Assembly: GCF_023264895.1 (NCBI RefSeq) | Contig: NZ_JAHFUY010000044.1 | Coordinates: forward strand, 1-35,147 | Source of the DNA: Herbiconiux sp. | GTDB lineage: Bacteria > Actinomycetota > Actinomycetes > Actinomycetales > Microbacteriaceae | Direction: 5' to 3' | DNA: 35,147 bases | Shown: one piece after another, positions 10,518-35,147 of the stretch | How the letters are laid out: every line of letters begins with the position of its first letter | Position numbering within the stretch: the first letter of the stretch is position 1 | Notes under the pieces: model-generated | What the model was told of the DNA's origin: nothing | The model's input: the letters and a program-made list of their open reading frames with translations, nothing else | The model's database searches: none | Program-made: the position numbers and the translations under genes

Positions 10518-11243
10518 ATGGGCAGCACAGTCGCCATCGTCACCGGGGCCTCGGGCGGGATCGGCCGCACGGTGGCCGAGCGCTTCGGCGCCCTCGGCCA
10601 CGACGTGGTCGTGCACTACGGCGGCGGCGCCGAGCGTGCCGCCGAGGTCGTCGAGGCGGTGCGCGCGGCCGGTGGCCGGGCGATCGCCGTGCGGGCCGAC
10701 GTGGCCGACGAGGGGGAGGTCGCCGCGCTGTTCGCGCAGGCGGAGGAGGAGTTCGGCGGGGTCGACGTGGTGGTGCACACCGCCGGCATCATGCCGCTCG
10801 CGCCGATCGCCGAGATGGACCTCGCCGACTTCGACCGCGTGCAGCGGGTGAACGTGCGCGGCACCTTCGTGGTCGACCAGGCCGCGGCCCGCACCGTGCG
10901 TGCCGGGGGCGCCATCGTGAACTTCTCCACCTCGGTCACCCGTCTGCAGCAGCCGGGCTACGGCGCCTACGCCGCGTCGAAGGGCGCGGTCGAGTCGCTC
11001 ACGCTCATCCTGGCACGTGAGCTCCGGGGGCGGGACGTCACGGTGAACGCCGTGGCTCCCGGGCCCACCGCGACCCCGCTGTTCCTCGAGGGCAAGTCGC
11101 CCGAGGCGATCGAGCACATCGCCTCGCTCGCGCCGCTCGGCAGGCTCGGCGAGCCCGCCGACATCGCCGACGCCGTGGTGGGCCTCGTCGCCTCGCGCTG
11201 GATCAACGGCCAGGTGGTCCACGTCAACGGCGGGATCGCGTGA
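10518..11243 (+). CDS. Short-chain dehydrogenase/reductase (SDR)
   Basis: The 241-aa protein is a classical SDR: NAD(P)-binding TGASGGIG at residues 9-16, HTAGIM near 88-92 in the position of NNAG, the Ser near 137-139, and the catalytic YAASK motif with Tyr 151 and Lys 155. GAGAGGA about six bases upstream supports ATG 10518. The downstream TetR gene starts inside its stop (GTGA), and a palindromic operator precedes it, so the enzyme is probably induced by its substrate or product. It could reduce or oxidise a carbonyl; substrate unknown. Confidence 0.92.
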   Translation: MGSTVAIVTGASGGIGRTVAERFGALGHDVVVHYGGGAERAAEVVEAVRAAGGRAIAVRADVADEGEVAALFAQAEEEFGGVDVVVHTAGIMPLAPIAEMDLADFDRVQRVNVRGTFVVDQAAARTVRAGGAIVNFSTSVTRLQQPGYGAYAASKGAVESLTLILARELRGRDVTVNAVAPGPTATPLFLEGKSPEAIEHIASLAPLGRLGEPADIADAVVGLVASRWINGQVVHVNGGIA

Positions 11244-11839
11244 CCGAGGCGATCGTGCGGCCGGGGCGGGGCCGGCGGCCGAGCGCCGAGGTGCGGCGCG
11301 ACGTGCTCGCCGCGGCCACCGAGCTGCTCCTGACCGACGGCGTGGCGGCCGTGACCTTCGAGCGGGTGGCCCAGGCGGCGCCGGCGAGCAAGGTGACGCT
11401 CTACAAGTGGTGGCCCACCCCCGGGGCGCTCGCGGCCGAGGCCTACTTCGCCCACGTCGAATCCGGTCTGCGCTTCGACGACTCCGGCGACCTGGCCGCC
11501 GACCTGCGGGCGCAGCTGCACGCCTTCGTGGCGACCCTCACCGACGAGCGGATCGGCCCGGTCATCGCGGGCTTCATCGGGGCGGCGCAGGCGGATGCGG
11601 CGCTCGCCGCGGCCTGGTCGGCCGGCTACTCCCTCGAGCGCCGGCGCCTGGCCGTGGAGCGGTTCGCCCGCGCCGAGGAGGCGGGGCAGCTGCGCGCCGG
11701 TCTCGACCTCGAGGTGCTCGTCGACCAGCTCTGGGGCGCCTGCTACCACCGCCTTCTCGTGCGCGACCAGCCGCTCACGCCGGCCTTCGCCGACGCGATC
11801 CTCGACAACCTGCTGCGAGGGGTCGCCATTGCGCCCTAG
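11240..11839 (+). CDS. TetR-family transcriptional regulator
   Basis: The 199-aa protein has an N-terminal TetR HTH (RRDVLAAATELLLTDG, then VTFERVAQAAPASKVTLYKWWP) and an all-helical ligand-binding C-terminal domain of the type found with YKWWP-containing TetR proteins. The GTG start overlaps the SDR stop by 4 bases, so it is translated with the SDR. It is likely to bind the TATGTAC/GTACATA palindrome at 10483-10501 and repress the operon. The ligand is unknown. Confidence 0.92.
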   Translation: MTEAIVRPGRGRRPSAEVRRDVLAAATELLLTDGVAAVTFERVAQAAPASKVTLYKWWPTPGALAAEAYFAHVESGLRFDDSGDLAADLRAQLHAFVATLTDERIGPVIAGFIGAAQADAALAAAWSAGYSLERRRLAVERFARAEEAGQLRAGLDLEVLVDQLWGACYHRLLVRDQPLTPAFADAILDNLLRGVAIAP

Positions 11840-11909: not shown

Positions 11910-12431
11910 TCAGGAGGGATCGACGAAGTGCACGCCCCACTTGGCCGAGGCGGCCAGGATGCGCTCCATGTCGGGCGGACCGGCCATGCCGGGGGCGTAC
12001 CAGAGGTCGGTGACGTCGCCGATGTCCTCGAAGAAGCGGTCGAGCCCTCCGGGAGTCGAGATCACGAACACCTTCGACTGGTCGACGCCCACGTTCTTGA
12101 ACGTGTGCACGACCGATCCGGGAATGGAGGCGATCGATCCGGGCCCGCCCGTGACGAGCTGCGGGCCGGAGTCGGTGACGTGCATGAACTGCACCTCGCC
12201 CGAGAGCACGTAGAAGAGCTCCGCCTGGGGGTGGTGGTGCGGGGGCGGGCCGCCGTTCGGCGGGGTCAGCTCCTCGAAGGCGCAGAACTGGTCGCCGGTC
12301 GAGGAGGAGGGCACCTTGACGGTGACGAGGTCGCCCACCACGTTGCGGGTGGGCCCCACCGGCTCACCGGGCAGGATGTGCCCGAACGGCATCGCGATCG
12401 GCGTGCCGAGAGCGAGCGCCGGGTCAGACAT
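11910..12431 (-). CDS. Cupin-domain protein (quercetin dioxygenase-like)
   Basis: The 173-aa protein has one cupin fold: motif 1 PPPHHHPQAELFYVLSGEV (metal ligands His, His, Glu) and motif 2 SIASIPGSVVHTFKNVG (His). This resembles quercetin 2,3-dioxygenase-type or small regulatory cupins. The start ATG 12431 lies 8 bases inside the preceding tautomerase gene, so the two are coupled. Later residues GGLDRFFEDIGDV resemble the tail of cupins acting on aromatic or flavonoid-like substrates. A dioxygenase or isomerase step in the nearby aromatic pathway is likely but inferred. Confidence 0.83.
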   Translation of the reverse strand: MSDPALALGTPIAMPFGHILPGEPVGPTRNVVGDLVTVKVPSSSTGDQFCAFEELTPPNGGPPPHHHPQAELFYVLSGEVQFMHVTDSGPQLVTGGPGSIASIPGSVVHTFKNVGVDQSKVFVISTPGGLDRFFEDIGDVTDLWYAPGMAGPPDMERILAASAKWGVHFVDPS

Positions 12432-12699
12432 CGGCCGTGACCGGCGCCGCCTGTGCGGGTGCGGGTGCGGCTGCCGCCTCGTTGCCCGCGGCGATGGCGC
12501 CGAGCACGAGCTCCGTCGTGATGCGATCGCCGCCACCGCCCCAGTCGCCGCTGTCGACCTCGTTGAGCAGCACGGTGACGAAGGGGCGCACGCCCTCTCC
12601 CTTCACGGCGACGACCGCGTTCGTGAAGCCCGCGATGAGCTCGCCCTTCTCGGCGGCGTCGTACGTTCCCGCAACCACGGTTGCGTTGATGACCGGCAT
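12424..12699 (-). CDS. Tautomerase-superfamily (4-oxalocrotonate tautomerase-like) protein
   Basis: The 91-aa protein starts MPVINATVVAGTY, with Pro directly after Met as in 4-OT-family enzymes that use the N-terminal proline as base. GFTNAVVAVKGE and FVTVLLNEV match the helix and strand of the fold, and a linker rich in Ala and Pro ends the chain. AAGGAGAG lies a few bases before ATG 12699. Members isomerise enol/keto acids in aromatic ring-fission pathways. It is the first gene of a leftward operon with the cupin gene. The exact substrate is not visible. Confidence 0.82.
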   Translation of the reverse strand: MPVINATVVAGTYDAAEKGELIAGFTNAVVAVKGEGVRPFVTVLLNEVDSGDWGGGGDRITTELVLGAIAAGNEAAAAPAPAQAAPVTADV

Positions 12700-12747
12700 G
12701 TTCTCTCCTTCTGCTGAACGGGGTTCGTCGCTGCACCGGCGGGCGGA

Positions 12748-12759
12748 GACGTGCACGTC
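12748..12759. promoter_or_regulatory. 12-bp perfect palindrome upstream of the tautomerase gene
   Basis: GACGTGCACGTC is its own reverse complement and lies 49 bases before the tautomerase ATG, downstream of the proposed transcription start. It may be an operator or a chance palindrome. Confidence 0.25.
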
Positions 12760-12775
12760 GCCAACCCGGATCCAG

Positions 12776-12850
12776 CTTGTCGACGAACATACCGTGCGGG
12801 AGGAAAGGGCGACAAGAGGCCCGGAATCCAGGGTGTTACAGTTGTGTTTC
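12776..12850 (-). promoter_or_regulatory. Leftward promoter region of the tautomerase-cupin operon
   Basis: Read leftward: box GAAACACAACTGTAAC (12850-12835), a TTGTCG -35-like hexamer (12815-12810), 18 bases, a TATGTT -10-like hexamer (12791-12786), and CGTCGACAAG (12785-12776). The same box and downstream block with nearly identical spacing (65 versus 66 bases) occur rightward at 13634-13709, on the other side of the XRE-OsmC gene. Confidence 0.6.
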
Positions 12851-12909
12851 CTCATCGTCGCCAAGGCCGTTCCGCCTTGTCGCCGACTCTCGATCACGCG
12901 GAGGTGCTC

Positions 12910-13599
12910 ATGGCGCACGACGACACTCTCGAGCTGGAGGTCGCGGTCACCGGCGAGCCCGTGACCGATCGCTTCGCGGCCAAGCTCCGCGCCCTCCGCG
13001 CCCAGCGCGAGTGGTCGCTCTCCCGCCTCGCCGCCGCGACGGACCTCTCGAAGGCCTACGTCTCCCGCCTGGAGCTCGGCGAGCGCCAGCCCTCGCTGCC
13101 CGCCCTCGTGGCTCTGGCCAGGGCCTACGGTCTCAGCGTGGGCGATCTCGTCGACGAGGAGCCGGCGTCGTCGAACATCACGCGCACCGGATCGTTCGAC
13201 TGGAACGCCGACGCCGCCACCCCGTACGGCCGCCTCGTGGGCGGGAGCGGCGCCCTCGACGCCGACTTCTCCTTCGACGGCCGGATGCTCGCCGAGGGGT
13301 CGAGCCCCGAGGAGATGGTGGCATGCGCGCAGGCCGCCTGCGCCGCCATGAGCCTCAACACCCTCCTCACGACCGCCGGCTACGAGCCCCGTGCGATCGG
13401 CACGCGGGTGTCGGTCACCATGGAGGTGTTCGACAGCAGCGCGGCGACCCTGCAGTCGATCGACATCGAGCTGCAGGCGGATGTGCCGGGCATGTCGTCG
13501 ACGGAGTTCGGGCAGCTCGCCCAGCGGGTCGCGCGCAACTCGACCATCGCCAAGGCGCTCGCGGTCGACATCCACATCGCCTCCACGCTCGTGGCCTGA
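12910..13599 (+). CDS. XRE-family HTH / OsmC-domain fusion regulator
   Basis: Residues about 22-80 are a typical XRE helix-turn-helix (FAAKLRALRAQREWSLSRLA, KAYVSRLELGERQPS, LARAYGLSVGDLV), as seen in XRE-cupin regulators. Instead of a cupin, residues about 88-229 are OsmC/Ohr-like: a GSSPEEMVACAQAACAAM helix with Cys 139 and Cys 144, then beta strands, then a VARNSTIAKAL helix. In OsmC peroxidases the first cysteine aligns with Cys 144, but the second (usually in a CPVS-type context) is replaced by Asn 210. Peroxidase chemistry is therefore unlikely; a ligand- or thiol-sensing role is inferred. GGAGGT stands 4 bases before ATG 12910. The gene lies between two look-alike promoter regions of catabolic operons, so it is the likely regulator. 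Confidence 0.87.
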   Translation: MAHDDTLELEVAVTGEPVTDRFAAKLRALRAQREWSLSRLAAATDLSKAYVSRLELGERQPSLPALVALARAYGLSVGDLVDEEPASSNITRTGSFDWNADAATPYGRLVGGSGALDADFSFDGRMLAEGSSPEEMVACAQAACAAMSLNTLLTTAGYEPRAIGTRVSVTMEVFDSSAATLQSIDIELQADVPGMSSTEFGQLAQRVARNSTIAKALAVDIHIASTLVA

Positions 13600-13633
13600 G
13601 GCTCGGTTCGTTCATTACGAGGCCGTGACGACA

Positions 13634-13709
13634 GAAACGCAACCGTAACAAACGCTTAACAAGCTCGTCCCATGAGCGGGTGCACCCCGACTGTAGTGTC
13701 GTCGACAAG
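13634..13709 (+). promoter_or_regulatory. Rightward promoter region of the hydrolase/monooxygenase operon
   Basis: GAAACGCAACCGTAAC (13634-13649), then a TAGTGT -10-like hexamer (13694-13699) and CGTCGACAAG (13700-13709). It mirrors the leftward region at 12776-12850. It also contains CGTAAC with a TAAC 8 bases after the CGTAA, echoing the spacing in the three palindrome elements at 22479, 28187 and 33057. No good -35 is visible, which would fit an activated promoter. Confidence 0.58.
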
Positions 13710-13789
13710 CGAGATCGGGTTTGGCGACGACCACCCTCCCGAACCGGATCCGCGTCCCTGTCCGACACGACGACGCCGAACGGATCCCC

Positions 13790-14809
13790 ATGGAACGCTC
13801 GATCGACCTGGAAGCCCCCGCCGCTCCCCACGAGCGCGCCGACGTCTCCGCGGTCACCGTGCGGAACGGTCGGTTCTGGATCCCGGGAGACGTCACGCAG
13901 GTCGGCATCACCGTGCAGAGCGGCCCGATGTACGTCTACTGGGAGGCGCCCGAGGTCGTCACCCGGCCGCATCCGGTGATCTTCGTGCACGGCGGCGGAT
14001 CGCAGGGCACCGACTGGCTCGGCACGGTCGACGGCCGCCCGGGGTGGGCCCGCCGCTTCGTGGAGGCCGGCTTCGCGGTCTACGTGGTCGACCGCCCCGG
14101 GCACGGGCGCTCGGCCTTCCACCCCGACGTGATCGGTGCGATGGGGCCGCAGTTCGGCTACGAGCCGGCGGTGGGCCTGTTCATCGACTCCGCCACCGAC
14201 GAGCCCCACACGGCCTGGCCCTGGGGGTCGGCGCCCGGCGACCCCGAGATGGACCAGCTGATCGCCGCCGTCGGCCCGCTGCCCGCCGACCTCGGACTCA
14301 GTGAGGAGCTCGACAGCGACCGCCTCGCCGCGCTGCTCGACCTCACGGGCCCCGCGGTGCTCGTGACCCACTCCGCGGGCGGCCCCTCCGGCTGGCTCAC
14401 CGCGGCGCTCCGGCCCGGCCTCGTGACGGCGATCGCCGCGATCGAGCCGATGGGCCCGGCCTTCGCCGAGTTCCCCGGTCTCGGCACCCTCACCTGGGGC
14501 CTCACGGCCGCACCGCTCGCCTACGACGCGGGCTACGAGACCCCCGCCGCGGTCGAGGCCGCGCCGGCCGGCGAGCGCACCGTCGCCGCTCTCGCGGGCC
14601 TGCCGGTCGCCGTCTTCACCGGGGGCAGCTCGCCGTTCTCGCACGTGGCGCCGGCCGTGGTCGAGTTCCTCGGGCACGCCGGGGCCGCCGCCGAGTGGGT
14701 GCACCTGCCCGACCTCGGCATCCACGGAAACGGCCACGGCCTCATGTACGAGCTCAACTCGGACGACACCGTGCGGCCGGTCATCGACTGGATCGCCGCC
14801 CACGACTGA
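13790..14809 (+). CDS. Alpha/beta-hydrolase
   Basis: The 339-aa protein has an N-terminal strand region (GRFWIPGDVTQVGITVQSGPMYVYW), the oxyanion HGGG (about 67-70), VDRPGHGRS, and the nucleophile elbow THSAGG with Ser 195. A GIHGNGHGLM segment near the C-terminus supplies the likely catalytic His. The family includes esterases and C-C hydrolases; substrate is not set by sequence. I chose ATG 13790, which leaves a leader of about 84 bases after the promoter; an in-frame TTG at 13721 would add 23 residues. Neither has a strong ribosome site. It is the first gene of the long rightward operon. Confidence 0.78.
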   Translation: MERSIDLEAPAAPHERADVSAVTVRNGRFWIPGDVTQVGITVQSGPMYVYWEAPEVVTRPHPVIFVHGGGSQGTDWLGTVDGRPGWARRFVEAGFAVYVVDRPGHGRSAFHPDVIGAMGPQFGYEPAVGLFIDSATDEPHTAWPWGSAPGDPEMDQLIAAVGPLPADLGLSEELDSDRLAALLDLTGPAVLVTHSAGGPSGWLTAALRPGLVTAIAAIEPMGPAFAEFPGLGTLTWGLTAAPLAYDAGYETPAAVEAAPAGERTVAALAGLPVAVFTGGSSPFSHVAPAVVEFLGHAGAAAEWVHLPDLGIHGNGHGLMYELNSDDTVRPVIDWIAAHD

Positions 14810-14959: not shown

Positions 14960-16162
14960 ATGCCTGTCAGCACCGCAGCCCCCCGCACCGCGGCCCCCCG
15001 CACCGCGCTCCATGTCAGCGATGACTTCGAGCCCCTGATGGAGCGCCTCGACGCGATCCTGCCGCTGATCACGGGGAGCGGCGCGCAGAACGACCTCGAC
15101 GGCCACCTCACGCCCGAGGTCGAACAGGCCCTCGCCGCCACCGGGGTCTACGGCATGACCGTGCCGGCCGAGCTCGGCGGCTACGAGTTCTCGCCCACCC
15201 AGGTCATCAAGGCGGTCGAGCGCCTCGCGGCCGCGGACGCCTCCACCGCCTGGGTCACCATGGCCCTCCAGATGGAGACCGGGAGCACCGCCGCCTACCT
15301 CGACCCCGCCGCGGCCCGCGAGCTCTACGCCGACGGCTTGCCGCTGCACGCCGGGCAGGGCACCAAGCCCGGCATCGCGGTGCCGGTCGAGGGCGGCTAC
15401 CGCCTCTCGGGCTCGTGGTCGTTCGCCTCGGGCATGCACCAGGCCACGCGCCTCCAGACCGCGGCGCTCGTGCGCGAGACGGGCGAGTCGCTCATGATCA
15501 CGGTGCCCGCCGCATCCGCGACCCTCATCGACAACTGGGACGTGATGGGGCTGAAGGCGACCGGCAGCATCGACTACGACCTCGAGGACGTGTTCGTGCC
15601 CGCCGAGCACGCCTGGCCGGCCGCCACCATGGAGCCCCGCACCGGCGGCGCGCTCTACCGCATCGGCATCGTGAACCTGTCGGGGCTCGGTCACGCCGGC
15701 TGGGCCCTCGGCGTGGCGCGCCGCATGCTCGACGAGCTGGGCGCGCTCGCCCGCCGCAAGACGGGTTCGCGGGGCGCGACCGTCGACTCCGCCCACTTCT
15801 ACGCCGAGTACGCGAAGGCCGAGGCGAAGGCGCGCTCGGCCCGCGCGTGGCTCCTCGAGGTGTGGGCCGACAACGAGGCCACGCTCGCCGCCGGGCTGCC
15901 GCTCTCGGACGAGCAGGAGACGCTCATCCGGCTCGCCCTCAGCAACGCGACCTGGATGGCCCACGAGGTCACGATGACCGTCTACACGTGGGCCGGCACC
16001 GCGGCGCTCCGCTCGGGCGACCTGCAGCGCTACTTCCGTGACATGCACGCCGGCACCCAGCACGTGACGAGCGGGCCCGGTGTGGTGCAGGGCTGCGGGC
16101 AGATGCTCGCGGGTCTCGCCCCCGGACGGCGCTGGATGTTCCTCGACCTCGTACCCGCCTGA
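14960..16162 (+). CDS. Acyl-CoA-dehydrogenase-fold flavin monooxygenase (group D)
   Basis: The 400-aa protein has the acyl-CoA dehydrogenase fold in the form of two-component FMN/FAD hydroxylases (HsaA, DszC, IacA, HpaH-type). Visible are TGVYGMTVPAELGGYEFSP, then DASTAWVTMALQME, SGSWSFASGMHQATR in the middle beta domain, VMGLKATGSIDYDLEDVFVP, and the C-terminal helix bundle ending HVTSGPGVVQGCGQMLAG. Such enzymes use reduced flavin from a separate reductase to hydroxylate an aromatic or heteroaromatic ring; no reductase gene is seen here. The N-terminus is a short Thr/Ala/Pro repeat (TAAPRTAAPRTA). A GAGAGAG site precedes ATG 14960. It is followed by the importer genes in the same operon. 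Confidence 0.88.
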   Translation: MPVSTAAPRTAAPRTALHVSDDFEPLMERLDAILPLITGSGAQNDLDGHLTPEVEQALAATGVYGMTVPAELGGYEFSPTQVIKAVERLAAADASTAWVTMALQMETGSTAAYLDPAAARELYADGLPLHAGQGTKPGIAVPVEGGYRLSGSWSFASGMHQATRLQTAALVRETGESLMITVPAASATLIDNWDVMGLKATGSIDYDLEDVFVPAEHAWPAATMEPRTGGALYRIGIVNLSGLGHAGWALGVARRMLDELGALARRKTGSRGATVDSAHFYAEYAKAEAKARSARAWLLEVWADNEATLAAGLPLSDEQETLIRLALSNATWMAHEVTMTVYTWAGTAALRSGDLQRYFRDMHAGTQHVTSGPGVVQGCGQMLAGLAPGRRWMFLDLVPA

Positions 16163-16248: not shown

Positions 16249-17280
16249 ATGAGAAACCGCAGACCGGCCGCAGTCGCCGCCGTCCTGGCCACCGCCACCG
16301 CCGTGGCCGTCGCCCTGACCGGCTGTGCCACGTCGTCGACCGCCACCCCCGACTCCACGGGCTCGGCCGAGGGCGACGCCCAGACCGTCACGGTCGGCAT
16401 CGACATCCCGTTCCACCCGCTCTACGCCTACCTCACCGCCAAGAGCGACGAGATCTTCGCCGATTCCGGCTACGACATCGACTTCGAGGTGCTCGACGCC
16501 ACGACCCTCGTGCCGAGCTTCGGCCGCGGCGACATCGACATCGTCACGACCGTTCCCTCGTTCCAGCCCCGGATCAAGGACCAGTACGGCATCGACACCC
16601 AGTTCTTCTACCCGATGGCCCGCTGGACCCCGGGCTCCGAGCTCTACGTCGCCGGCGACTCCGACATCCAGTCGATCGAGGACCTCGCGGGCAAGAAGGT
16701 CGCCATCCCGCCGCTCGCCACTCGCTTCGGTGCCGAGGAGGCCGCGGTGCTCGCCACCACGGGTGAGACCATCCAGGACTACTTCGAGCTCACCGAGACC
16801 GACGCCGCCGCGCAGGAGCTCACCCTCGGCCGTGCCGACGCCGCGTTCATCGAGGCTCCCGCCACCGCCCCGCTGATCGAGGCAGGCTTCCGTCCGGTCT
16901 ACAACGTGCAGGAGGCCTTCGAGGAGGAGTTCGGCGACCCGGCGGTGCTGAGCGGCGGGTTCATCGCGAGCAACGAGTTCGCCGAGGCCAACCCCGAGGT
17001 GATCGATCTCATCGTGCAGGCGACTCAGGATGTCTGGACCCAGTTCCAGGAGGACCCCGACTCGGTGCTCACCGTCGCGAGCGACGAGACCGGCATCCCG
17101 GTCGAGCAGCTCGAGCTCGTCTCGCAGATCCTCAACCTCGCCGAGATGCCCGACGACCAGAAGATCGTCTCCGAGACCGACGTGGCCACCTGGAGCGCGA
17201 TCTTCCCACTGCTCGTCGAGGCCGGCTTCCTCACCGAGGAGCCCGAGGACCCGGCATCGATGTTCATCGTCACGGAATGA
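16249..17280 (+). CDS. ABC importer substrate-binding lipoprotein, NMT1/SsuA-like
   Basis: The 343-aa protein begins with a basic signal peptide and lipobox LTGC (Cys 26), so it is anchored outside the membrane. The mature part shows an NMT1/THI5- or SsuA-like binding fold (IDIPFHPLYAYLTAKSDEIF, FGRGDIDIVTTVPSFQPRIK, DLAGKKVAIPP, LGRADAAFIEAPATAP). Family members bring in sulfonates, nitrate, aromatic acids, pyrimidine precursors and similar small molecules. Its stop overlaps the permease start (ATGA). Taken with the oxygenases, an aromatic substrate is likely, by inference. Confidence 0.92.
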   Translation: MRNRRPAAVAAVLATATAVAVALTGCATSSTATPDSTGSAEGDAQTVTVGIDIPFHPLYAYLTAKSDEIFADSGYDIDFEVLDATTLVPSFGRGDIDIVTTVPSFQPRIKDQYGIDTQFFYPMARWTPGSELYVAGDSDIQSIEDLAGKKVAIPPLATRFGAEEAAVLATTGETIQDYFELTETDAAAQELTLGRADAAFIEAPATAPLIEAGFRPVYNVQEAFEEEFGDPAVLSGGFIASNEFAEANPEVIDLIVQATQDVWTQFQEDPDSVLTVASDETGIPVEQLELVSQILNLAEMPDDQKIVSETDVATWSAIFPLLVEAGFLTEEPEDPASMFIVTE

Positions 17281-18152
17281 GTGTCGTGACGAGCCCCGCC
17301 CCCACCGTCGGTGCACCGGCTGCCACGTCGGCCGGTGCACCCGGGGCCCCGGCCGCCGCCGGCGCCTCCACTCCGTCCGCGCCCGTTCGCCGGCGCGGGG
17401 GCTGGAAGCGCCCCGCCCGCGTGATCCTGAGCGTCATCGTGATCTTCGCGGTCTGGGCGATCGCCTCCACCCAGTTCCCGTCGTACATCCTGCCCTCGCC
17501 GCTGGATGTCTGGGACCAGTTCCTCAGCGCCGTCGGCCGGGGGGTCTGGGTCGAGGAGATTCTCGCCACCGTGCAGCACCTGCTCGCCGCCTTCGGTCTG
17601 GTGATCGTGATCGGACTGCCGCTCGGCATCCTGATCGGCCGCTCGAAGATCGCCGAGGACCTCGCCCGGGTGCCGATGATCTTCCTGCAGACCGTGCCCA
17701 CGATCGTGCTGATCGCCCTCGCCCTCGTGATCATGGGCGTGAGCGACACCGCGGTGATCGGGGTGACGGTGGCCGGCTCGATCAGCTACTTCCTCATCAA
17801 CGTCATTCAGGGAACGCGCTCGATCGATCCCGACCTCACCGAGATGAGCCGGGCCTACCAGGCCTCGGAGGGCTCGATCATGCGCTCGGTCGTGCTGCCC
17901 TCGGTGGTCCCCTACCTCCTGGCGGGAGCCCGGATCACGCTCGGCGTGGCCTGGCAGATCACGCTCTTCTCGGAGTACCTGATGGGCACCGCGGGCGTGG
18001 GCTTCCAGGTCAACACCTCCATCAAGCTCCTCGACACCGCGGCGGTGTTCATGTGGGGCCTCTCCATCGTCGCGCTCACGCTGCTGGTGGAGTACGGCAT
18101 CTTCCGGCCGGTGGAGCGACTGCTCACCCGCCACGTGAAAGGACGATCATGA
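17277..18152 (+). CDS. ABC importer permease, SsuC/TauC type
   Basis: The 291-aa protein has an Ala/Pro-rich cytoplasmic N-terminus and about six membrane helices of the binding-protein-dependent transport type. Its coupling loop region is EMSRAYQASEGSIMRSVVLPSVVPYLLAGARI, the pattern EAAxxxGAxxxxxxxxVxLP. The start overlaps the lipoprotein stop by 4 bases and its stop overlaps the ATPase start by 4 bases, giving one translational block of importer genes. Confidence 0.93.
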   Translation: MSVVTSPAPTVGAPAATSAGAPGAPAAAGASTPSAPVRRRGGWKRPARVILSVIVIFAVWAIASTQFPSYILPSPLDVWDQFLSAVGRGVWVEEILATVQHLLAAFGLVIVIGLPLGILIGRSKIAEDLARVPMIFLQTVPTIVLIALALVIMGVSDTAVIGVTVAGSISYFLINVIQGTRSIDPDLTEMSRAYQASEGSIMRSVVLPSVVPYLLAGARITLGVAWQITLFSEYLMGTAGVGFQVNTSIKLLDTAAVFMWGLSIVALTLLVEYGIFRPVERLLTRHVKGRS

Positions 18153-18931
18153 CGATCACGGCCGATACCGGAGCGGCGACGGCGGCGCCCATGGTGGGCT
18201 TCCGCGGGGTGGGCAAGACCTACCCCAAGCAGGCCCTGCCGGTGCTCGAGGGCATCGACCTCGAGCTCCGCGAGGGCGAGGTGGTGGCCCTCATCGGCCC
18301 CTCCGGCTGCGGCAAGTCGACCCTGCTCAACATCCTCGCCGGGCTCACCGACGTCTCGACCGGCACCGTCGACCTCGCGCGGTCGGATCTCCGGAGTGCC
18401 TACGTGTTCCAGAACCCGCGGCTGCTGCCGTGGCGCACGGTGCTGAAGAACGTGGAGTTCGCCCTCGAGCAGATCGGCGTGCCGGCCGAGGAGCGCCGCC
18501 GGCGCGCCCTCGCGGCCCTCGAGACGGTGCACCTCGGCGAGCACGTCGACAAGTTCCCGAACCAGCTGAGCGGCGGCATGCAGCAGCGCGCCGCCCTCGC
18601 CAGGGGCATCGCGATCGAGCCCACCCTGCTGCTGCTCGACGAGCCGCTCGGGGCGCTCGACGCGCTCACCCGCAGCTACCTGCAGGAGGAGCTCCTCCGC
18701 ATCATCGCGGAGCTGAAGACCACGACCCTCCTCGTGACCCACGACATCGACGAGGCCATCCTGCTCGCCGACCGCGTGGTGGTGCTCTCCAGCCGGCCCG
18801 CGCGCATCCGGGAGATCTTCGAGGTGCCGTTCGGCGCCGCACGGTCGCTCGACACGATCATCGGCGACCCGCGCTTCGGCGCCCTCCGGCACGAGATCCG
18901 CGAGCTGCTGCGACCGGAGGTGGCGGCATGA
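18149..18931 (+). CDS. ABC importer ATP-binding protein, SsuB/TauB type
   Basis: The 260-aa protein has Walker A GPSGCGKST (residues 50-58), Q-loop FQNPRLLPW, signature LSGGMQQR (140-147) and Walker B LLLLDEP (160-166), followed by the switch His in VTHDIDEA. The QNPRLLPWRT form is characteristic of the nitrate/sulfonate/taurine subgroup. The start ATG 18149 has GAAAGGA upstream and overlaps the permease stop. It powers the importer encoded with it. Confidence 0.95.
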   Translation: MTITADTGAATAAPMVGFRGVGKTYPKQALPVLEGIDLELREGEVVALIGPSGCGKSTLLNILAGLTDVSTGTVDLARSDLRSAYVFQNPRLLPWRTVLKNVEFALEQIGVPAEERRRRALAALETVHLGEHVDKFPNQLSGGMQQRAALARGIAIEPTLLLLDEPLGALDALTRSYLQEELLRIIAELKTTTLLVTHDIDEAILLADRVVVLSSRPARIREIFEVPFGAARSLDTIIGDPRFGALRHEIRELLRPEVAA

Positions 18932-33128: not shown

Positions 33129-35147
33129 ATGAAAATCGCATGCATCGGTGGAGGCCCCGGCGGCCTGTACAGCGCCATCCTGCTCAAGCTCGCCGATCCC
33201 GCCCACGAGGTGACGGTCTACGAGCGCAACGCGGTCGACGAGACCTTCGGCTTCGGGGTCGTGTTCTCGGAGGAGACCCTCGACGGCCTCCGCACGGCCG
33301 ACCCGGTGAGCTTCGAGCGGATCGAGAAGCTCTGGCGCAAGTGGAGCGCCATGGACGTCGACTTCCTCGGCTACGAGGAGCGCAGCGACGGACACGCCTT
33401 CGCGGCCCTCGCCCGCAAGGACCTGCTGATGGTGCTCGCCGACCGCGCCGCCGAGCTCGGCGTCGAGCTCGTGCACAACACGGATGCGCCGCTCGCCGAG
33501 GAGCTGCGGCTCACCCACGACCTCGTGATCGCCTCCGACGGCGTCAACAGCCGCACCCGGGAGACCTACGCGGCCGAGTTCGGCGAGAAGGTCGAGGTGC
33601 GACCCTTCAAGTACGCCTGGTTCGGCACCGACCGGCCGGTGGACTGCTTCACCTTCGTGTTCGTCGACACGCCCTACGGCATGTTCTGGGCGCACATCTA
33701 CCCCTTCGGCGAGAACGGGTCGACCTTCCTCGTCGAGACCGACCCCGAGACCTGGCAGCGCGCGGGCCTCGACGCCTCGGTGCGGGTGCCCGGCCAGACC
33801 GACCAGACGGCGCTGGCGTTCTGCGAGGAGATCTTCGCCGACTACCTGCAGGGACACGCGCTGCAGGGCAACAACTCCAACTGGCTGAACTTCCGTGACG
33901 TCACGAACGAGCGCTGGCACACCGGCAACGTCGTGATCATCGGAGACGCCGCGCACACCGCCCACTTCTCCATCGGCTCCGGCACCAAGCAGGCGCTCGA
34001 GGACGCGGTGGCGCTCGTGGGCGCGGTCGCCGGTGAGCCCACCGTCGAAGACGCGCTGCTGCGCTACGAGGAGATCCGCCGGCCCGTCGCCGCCTCGCTC
34101 CGGCGCTCGGCCATGACGAGCCTCGAGTGGTTCGAGAGCATCCACCGCTACACCGTGCTGCCGCCCGCGCAGTTCGTGTTCCAGCTGCTCACCCGCAGCC
34201 AGCGCATCACGTACGACAACCTGCGCGTGCGCGATCCGCTCTACATGGCCCGTGTCGACGACTGGTTCGCCGAGGACCAGGCCGCCCGCGGCACCGGCGC
34301 ACCCTCGGGCACGCCGCCCATGTTCTACCCCTACAGGCTGCGCGACCTCGAGCTGAAGAACCGCGTGGTGGTCTCGCCCACCGCGCAGTACTCGGCCGTC
34401 GACGGCGTGCCGACCGACTGGCACCTCGTGCACCTCGGCTCCCGCGCCGTGGGCGGCGCCGGGCTCGTCTTCACCGAGATGACCTGCGTGTCGCCCGAGG
34501 GCCGCATCACCCCCGGCTGCCCCGGCATCTGGGACGACGAGCAGGAGCAGGCGTGGGCGCGGGTCGTCGACTTCGTGCACTCCAACAGCTCGGCCGCCAT
34601 CGGGCTGCAGATCGGCCACTCGGGCCGGAAGGGCAGCACCAAGCTCATGTGGGAGGGCATGGACGAGGCGCTCGACGAGGGCAACTGGCCCATCGTCGCT
34701 CCGTCGCCCATCCCGTACCTGGCCCACGGGCAGGTGCCGCACGAGCTCACCGAGGCCGAGATCGCGGGCATCGTGGAGGAGCACGTGCAGGCGGCCCTCC
34801 GCGGCGCCCGGGCGGGCTTCGACATCCTCGAGCTGCACTTCGCGCACGGGTACCTCGTGTCGAGCTTCCTCTCGCCGCTGTCGAACCAGCGCACCGACGG
34901 CTACGGCGGCGACGCCGAGGGCCGCAGCCGGATCGCGATCGAGATCTTCGACGCCGTGCGCGCCGTGTGGCCCGAGTCGAAGCCGATCAGCGTGCGCATC
35001 AGCGCCACCGAGTGGGTCGACGGCGGATTCTCCGGCGACGACGCGGTGGAGCTGTCACGCGTGCTCAAGGAGCACGGCTGCGACATCATCGACGTCTCGA
35101 CCGGGCAGACCAGCACCGAGGCCAAGCCCAACTACGGCCGGCTCTAC
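33129..35147 (+). CDS. Bifunctional salicylyl-CoA 5-hydroxylase / 2-aminobenzoyl-CoA monooxygenase-reductase (3' end cut off)
   Basis: The 673 residues seen hold two fused domains. The N-terminal part (about 1-390) is a group A FAD monooxygenase: GGGPGG (7-12) and GDAAHTAHF (Gly 272-Asp 273-...). From residue 398 an Old-Yellow-Enzyme-like domain follows: MFYPYRLRDLELKNRVVVSP, then DWHLVHLGSRAVGGAG, HFAHGYLVSSFLSPLS and RTDGYGG. This fusion is characteristic of salicylyl-CoA 5-hydroxylase (SdgC) and 2-aminobenzoyl-CoA monooxygenase/reductase. The family is about 760-790 residues, so about 90-120 residues lie beyond the right edge. The hydroxylase oxidises a CoA-bound aromatic ring with NAD(P)H and O2. 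Which of the two substrates applies cannot be read off, but the ligase upstream fits both. Confidence 0.93.
   Translation, partial: MKIACIGGGPGGLYSAILLKLADPAHEVTVYERNAVDETFGFGVVFSEETLDGLRTADPVSFERIEKLWRKWSAMDVDFLGYEERSDGHAFAALARKDLLMVLADRAAELGVELVHNTDAPLAEELRLTHDLVIASDGVNSRTRETYAAEFGEKVEVRPFKYAWFGTDRPVDCFTFVFVDTPYGMFWAHIYPFGENGSTFLVETDPETWQRAGLDASVRVPGQTDQTALAFCEEIFADYLQGHALQGNNSNWLNFRDVTNERWHTGNVVIIGDAAHTAHFSIGSGTKQALEDAVALVGAVAGEPTVEDALLRYEEIRRPVAASLRRSAMTSLEWFESIHRYTVLPPAQFVFQLLTRSQRITYDNLRVRDPLYMARVDDWFAEDQAARGTGAPSGTPPMFYPYRLRDLELKNRVVVSPTAQYSAVDGVPTDWHLVHLGSRAVGGAGLVFTEMTCVSPEGRITPGCPGIWDDEQEQAWARVVDFVHSNSSAAIGLQIGHSGRKGSTKLMWEGMDEALDEGNWPIVAPSPIPYLAHGQVPHELTEAEIAGIVEEHVQAALRGARAGFDILELHFAHGYLVSSFLSPLSNQRTDGYGGDAEGRSRIAIEIFDAVRAVWPESKPISVRISATEWVDGGFSGDDAVELSRVLKEHGCDIIDVSTGQTSTEAKPNYGRLY

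Follow-up and report, generated by a model that had tools for sequence, protein, structure and literature searches.

The open reading frame at 12910-13599 encodes a real fusion of an XRE-type helix-turn-helix (HTH) domain with an OsmC domain. We consider it probable, from sequence comparison, that the protein is a local, autoregulated repressor built in the manner of the XRE-cupin regulators, in which the OsmC domain would act as sensor and as dimer clamp. The gene lies on a complete contig of 35,147 bases (G000:C22), which is referred to as the window in the following.

12910-13599, plus strand: XRE-OsmC fusion gene, 229 aa; HTH at residues 21-82, OsmC at residues 92-222

Translation of this frame gives a product of 229 aa, to which Pfam assigns HTH_31 (53.7 bits, cut-off 27, residues 21-82) and HTH_3 (51.1 bits, cut-off 23). 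The Cro/C1-type HTH thus exceeds the curated cut-off for the XRE family. OsmC (PF02566) is matched at residues 129-222 with 43.1 bits (cut-off 27.5), and the NCBIfam model for OsmC family peroxiredoxins, TIGR03562, extends over residues 92-221 with an E value of 2.9e-22, its score of 79.2 bits narrowly missing the cut-off of 85.8. No cupin domain was matched in Pfam at E ≤ 0.01; OsmC stands in its place. When the PDB was searched with phmmer, the first half of the protein retrieved XRE proteins such as DdrOC and ClgR, while the second half retrieved the OsmC structures 1ukk, 1qwi and 1nye from E. coli and T. thermophilus. The Pfam match together with these structures excludes a chance similarity, so that the joining of the two domains, first proposed from the letters of the sequence, is confirmed. 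In addition, the fused frame is free of stops in three separate assemblies, namely the window and the corresponding loci of Herbiconiux oxytropis CPCC 203407 (L007) and Herbiconiux sp. nzgw89 (L008). Between the window and L008, changes at codon positions 1, 2 and 3 number 14, 17 and 67, third positions being dominant. An AlphaFold monomer model based on a three-row alignment was poor (mean pLDDT 47); with this model, OsmC structures headed the 50 Foldseek matches shown, the superposition being bad (rmsd 12.9 for the first).

To describe the active site of the OsmC half, the fusion was placed in an alignment with 21 rows of OsmC sequences, which are its phmmer matches among the fetched genus and class loci. 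These rows represent 19 distinct places, since L062/L099 and L006/L071 were each entered twice, and they omit more distant Ohr-type proteins that gave no phmmer match to the fusion. Cys144 stands in a column that holds Cys in 21/21 rows and corresponds to the peroxidatic position, and Glu134 likewise stands in a column that is Glu in all 21. Arg125 falls into a gapped loop with Arg in 2/21 rows, and is invariant in a four-row alignment. According to the accessible text of PMC5962072, Cys, Arg and Glu form the triad of Ohr, and in OsmC the Arg sits in a Gly-rich loop. The resolving position has changed: the column that is Cys in 21/21 rows holds Ser211, the adjacent Pro (21/21) is replaced by Thr212, and a His close to Cys144 that is invariant in all 21 rows is replaced by Gln141. 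Cys139 is an additional cysteine in a column that is otherwise Ala (21/21). Cys139, Cys144 and Ser211 are common to all three fusion-bearing species. Instead of the two redox cysteines that define the OsmC peroxidase subfamily, the fusion thus has Cys144 and, at the second site, Ser211. Judged by the columns of Cys144, Glu134 and Arg125 versus that of Ser211, the domain has retained its peroxidatic centre but not the resolving Cys. The sequence-only reading had correctly recognised Cys144 as the retained first cysteine of OsmC and Cys139 as an extra one. It had also noted the loss of the second redox cysteine, which is real, but had placed it at Asn210; the alignment rules this out, as Asn210 precedes the actual site, Ser211, by one residue.

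Full-length fusions were detected in 3 of the 16 Herbiconiux genomes, the two besides that of the window being L007 (99%) and L008 (90%). Both surfaced in the genus search and in a six-peptide scan of genome contigs, which reaches close relatives only. Apart from the genome of the window, no full-length fusion was present in samples of 299 genomes of the family (E ≤ 1e-25), 396 of the order (E ≤ 1e-14), 394 of the class (E ≤ 1e-13) and 296 of the phylum (E ≤ 1e-18); these samples overlap, and most genomes were scored on 7-9 first-look candidates only. The seven other matches in the class are XRE-cupin-like proteins (L009, L013, L014, L015) or stand-alone OsmC proteins (L010, L011, L012), a reading with which a Pfam check of L009, L011 and L013 agrees. 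The sole other match in the phylum (G904) covers residues 4-109 of the query and contains an internal stop. Among 72,556 plasmid records 39 matched the fusion, none of them over 80% of the query; none of 50,697 phage records matched, and no relative was found in viral contigs with either the fusion or OsmC sequences as query. The apparent rarity of the fusion concerns Actinomycetota; beyond that phylum the search covered the plasmid, phage and viral records together with the six-peptide contig scan only. Within the samples searched, this check of domain architecture confines full-length XRE-OsmC proteins to the three Herbiconiux genomes, and the fusion is a feature of a few related soil bacteria.

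The XRE domain had been described from the sequence as one of the kind normally fused to a cupin, and this holds for the relatives of the HTH: Pfam finds Cupin_2 in 9/9 of those tested, a set chosen as six of the best genus matches, two class-level matches and the XRE protein encoded beside a paralogous hydrolase, and not at random. Since all nine carry a cupin, the sensor domain was apparently swapped. As the simplest history, we infer that in one Herbiconiux lineage an OsmC domain took the place of the cupin in an XRE-cupin-like regulator. The paralogous hydrolase just mentioned is 53% identical to the one encoded next to the fusion and is itself encoded, in the genome of the window, beside a gene for an ordinary XRE-cupin protein (G000:C79:6534-8085; L029 6534-8079). 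This pair offers a natural comparison for the exchange of cupin for OsmC. Between the window and L008, 0/62 residues of the HTH half differ at a dS of 0.61, and the HTH shows no amino-acid difference across the three species; in the OsmC half 16/138 residues are changed (dN 0.064, dS 0.456). By these values both halves are under purifying selection, and the OsmC half is therefore no decaying remnant.

The fusion gene is flanked by two operons of enzymes and, at some distance, by a second regulator gene:

11240-11839: TetR gene, about 1 kb from the fusion gene
11910-12431, minus strand: cupin protein (Pfam), by its position sharing an operon with the tautomerase gene
12424-12702, minus strand: tautomerase of the 4-oxalocrotonate tautomerase family (profile matches), divergent from the fusion gene
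13790-14809, plus strand: alpha/beta hydrolase (Pfam), first gene of the plus-strand operon
14960-16162, plus strand: flavin monooxygenase of the acyl-CoA dehydrogenase fold, with HsaA as best NCBIfam match, far below the cut-off
16249-18931, plus strand: ABC transporter genes for an SsuA-like binding protein, a permease and an ATPase (profile matches)

For the hydrolase the ATG at 13790 is the preferred start, because indels in L008 break the frame between 13721 and 13790. Additional cupins, an FAA hydrolase, an AMP ligase and an SDR gene are further neighbours. With the tautomerase, the hydrolase, the HsaA-like monooxygenase, the cupins, the FAA hydrolase and the AMP ligase side by side, the enzymes suggest an aromatic pathway. 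In a distant genome (G587, L036 6895-10784) genes for a related hydrolase (58%) and monooxygenase (57%) are adjoined by ring-cleavage-dioxygenase-like and flavin-reductase-like genes, named from their translations, and this gene set hints at a ring-cleavage pathway. The stretch fetched around that hydrolase contains no match to the fusion. At 33129-35147 the window encodes a fusion of FAD_binding_3 and Oxidored_FMN, cut by the contig end, which we take to be of the kind of 2-aminobenzoyl-CoA monooxygenase/reductase or salicylyl-CoA 5-hydroxylase. In nzgw89 the cluster is bordered (L008 900-4700) by an apparent prophage lysis region and a sequence resembling the 3' end of a tRNA; ARAGORN found no whole tRNA at this border, and searches of the 35,147 bases of the window for tRNAs and Rfam elements gave no match.

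A comparison of the two promoter regions revealed a 30-bp inverted repeat, CGTCGnCAA-N12-TTGnCGACG, of which three copies surround the fusion gene:

12756-12785, unstranded: IR1, candidate operator of the minus-strand tautomerase-cupin operon, situated in its leader and immediately preceded by a -10-like TATGTT
12856-12885, unstranded: IR2, candidate operator with 1 mismatch, about 25 nt before the ATG of the fusion gene
13700-13729, unstranded: IR3, candidate operator of the hydrolase-monooxygenase operon, situated in its leader and immediately preceded by a -10-like TAGTGT

IR1 and IR3 served to define the pattern, IR2 was found afterwards by a pattern search, and the statistical tests were made after the element had been seen. 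IR1, IR3 and IR2 match 16, 16 and 15 of the 16 specified positions, respectively; when the two intergenic stretches were dinucleotide-shuffled 2000 times, no score rose above 14, a value reached in 2/2000. When up to 3 mismatches are allowed, 0.57 pattern matches are expected in the window, and 1/100 shuffles reached three. Dyad symmetry as such is common, since eight 30-bp stretches of the window, IR1 included, reach 12/15 self-matches. The -10-like elements were assigned by eye, and a promoter scan of 12600-13850 returned no sigma-70-like promoter.

All three repeats are present in L007 and L008. In each of the three species the starts of IR1 and IR2 (12756 and 12856) are separated by exactly 100 bp, despite diverged surroundings. 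Across the 16 genus genomes, 11 distinct sites carry at most one mismatch, 9 of which lie at this locus in the three fusion-bearing genomes; the remaining 2 are found among the 13 genomes that lack the fusion, one in G288 and one in G307. At up to two mismatches 39 sites were counted versus 33 for a reversed-pattern control, and these sites were therefore excluded from the count. Between the window and L008, 1/54 positions of the repeat arms are changed, compared to 79/275 other intergenic positions (Fisher p 1.4e-6); for the window and L007 the difference is not significant (1/54 versus 17/275, p 0.17). In a tblastn search with genes of the window, no regulator gene other than the fusion was found next to the repeats in both L007 and L008. 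The half-sites of the repeat are about 21 bp apart from centre to centre, which is wide for a single XRE dimer. For predicted XRE motifs, the accessible part of PMC12565409 gives spacers around 12-14 bp, and the spacer in the repeats of this locus is 12. A looser shared element, TCGTCGACAAGCNNGATCNGG, had been considered as well; it is exact only at this locus but has many matches with 1-2 mismatches across the 16 genomes, and it was dropped in favour of the inverted-repeat pattern.

The same promoter regions contain two GAAAC-n6-GTAAC boxes (GTTAC boxes), and a similar box recurs at a second locus:

12835-12850, minus strand: box 1, GAAAC-n6-GTAAC toward the tautomerase operon; probable GlnR/MtrA-like response-regulator site
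13634-13649, plus strand: box 2, GAAAC-n6-GTAAC when read toward the hydrolase operon; probably a response-regulator site
L088 560-575, L089 3920-3935 and L090 4015-4030: further box copies beside a ROK-type regulator

As had been read from the sequence, the gene lies between two matching promoter regions. Both boxes are present at the coordinates given for them, and they agree at 14/16 positions. It had further been suggested that the fusion protein itself reads these boxes. In a rival reading it would do so as an activator: the boxes stand 65 and 66 nt before the inverted repeats, at the same distance upstream of both operons and in the same orientation toward them. Conservation of the boxes in the three species would fit this proposal (1/32 positions changed in L008 versus 79/275 elsewhere, p 4.8e-4), as would the further exact or one-mismatch box that each fusion genome carries between the ROK-type regulator gene and a divergent transporter-type gene, names that were read from translations, and the restriction of exact copies to the fusion-bearing genomes (0 in the other 13 of the genus). 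Against it, one-mismatch boxes precede unrelated genes in genomes that lack the fusion (two in G288, one in G250), and at up to two mismatches the 16 genus genomes contain 29 sites, close to the 22 of a reversed-pattern control. Moreover, the boxes are direct repeats of 5-mers with a 6-bp spacer and a period of 11 bp, as for GlnR, whose published boxes include GAAAC-n6-GTATC and GTnAC-n6-GTnAC (PMC10704036, accessible text). The related direct repeat of MtrA, in which 5 bp separate two repeats of 5-6 bases (PMC5650626, accessible text), fits less well than the GlnR form. Because of the GlnR-type pattern and the copies near unrelated genes in genomes without the fusion, we provisionally assign the boxes to a global response regulator (GlnR/MtrA-like) and set them aside as the operator of the fusion. 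An activator acting through them is unlikely, and by sequence the inverted repeats appear to be the better operator candidates.

The inverted repeats could also serve another regulator, for example the TetR protein encoded at 11240-11839 or a distant one, while the fusion acts elsewhere. The TetR gene is only about 1 kb away, and palindromes of about 30 bp also suit TetR proteins. However, neither the TetR nor the SDR gene has a tblastn match in L008 within 5 kb upstream of the cupin gene, and all three repeats persist there; the fusion gene has one of the repeats in its own leader, and across the genus the occurrence of the repeats follows that of the fusion gene. We regard this explanation, like the activator, as having a low probability. 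Still less probable is that the OsmC half is a working peroxidase, tethered to DNA or part of a bifunctional enzyme, rather than a sensor. The retention of Cys144, Glu134 and the aligned Arg125, which correspond to the Ohr triad (PMC5962072, accessible text), would speak for catalysis, but residues that are invariant in the 21 rows, the resolving Cys, the Pro and the His, are replaced by Ser211, Thr212 and Gln141.

For the favoured reading, a local autoregulated repressor, we infer DNA binding, repression and a dimeric form along the following lines. Two OsmC domains would form the intertwined dimer of the family and hold two XRE domains together; such a dimer is known for OsmC proteins (PMC5962072, accessible text), and could supply the dimerisation of the regulator. 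The dimer, or a pair of dimers, would bind CGTCGnCAA-N12-TTGnCGACG at the three copies before the tautomerase-cupin operon, the regulator gene and the hydrolase-monooxygenase-transporter operon, where they would overlap or follow the presumed transcription starts. Repression and autoregulation are favoured because IR1 and IR3 follow the -10-like elements and IR2 lies shortly before the ATG of the fusion gene. XRE-cupin regulators are described in the accessible text of PMC7901475 as local repressors that inhibit neighbouring genes. A signal received in the OsmC pocket would then release the DNA. This signal may be the oxidation of Cys144, which would proceed without the usual disulfide, since the partner Cys is Ser211, or it may be a compound of the pathway that binds in the OsmC pocket. 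As Cys, Glu and Arg persist in the OsmC half, we give a thiol or peroxide signal a slight preference over a ligand. A more specific version can be offered only tentatively, at somewhat below an even chance: the OsmC peroxidase fold would have taken the place of the cupin as the sensing half, loss of the resolving Cys would have turned it into a one-Cys switch (Cys144, perhaps with Cys139), and peroxide or a pathway intermediate would open the catabolic cluster via three dedicated 30-bp operators.

Several known systems resemble the fusion in part. The XRE-cupin regulators PsdR, PauR and ErfA of Pseudomonas (PMC7901475, accessible text) also have an N-terminal XRE HTH and one C-terminal small-molecule domain, and like the fusion they are encoded beside catabolic enzymes and a transporter and probably regulate locally; in the fusion, however, the C-terminal domain is OsmC and not a cupin. 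The OsmC peroxidases (TIGR03562; 1nye and 1qwi of E. coli, 1ukk of T. thermophilus) share the domain at residues 92-222 with its Cys, Glu and Arg positions, whereas the fusion has a DNA-binding domain attached and carries Ser211, Thr and Gln in place of the resolving Cys, Pro and His. MsrR of Corynebacterium glutamicum is an actinobacterial XRE thiol-switch repressor that acts both on its own operon and on a divergent target (PMC7532634, accessible text). It senses oxidants via Cys, as is proposed as one option for the fusion, but it differs by using a single Cys62, and the accessible text of PMC7532634 names OsmC only once, in the reference list. The sequence-only reading had been aware of no described XRE-OsmC regulator class, and in agreement with this our searches of open-licence full texts turned up no description of one, the accessible parts of PMC7532634 and PMC5720513 included.

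Few regulators are more common in bacteria than those of the XRE family, and the signals to which they respond are often unknown. In the case presented here, the usual sensor module has apparently given way to a well-studied peroxidase fold whose active site is altered. One small protein and three short, defined candidate operators would therefore suffice for a direct test of whether the OsmC pocket can serve as a sensor.
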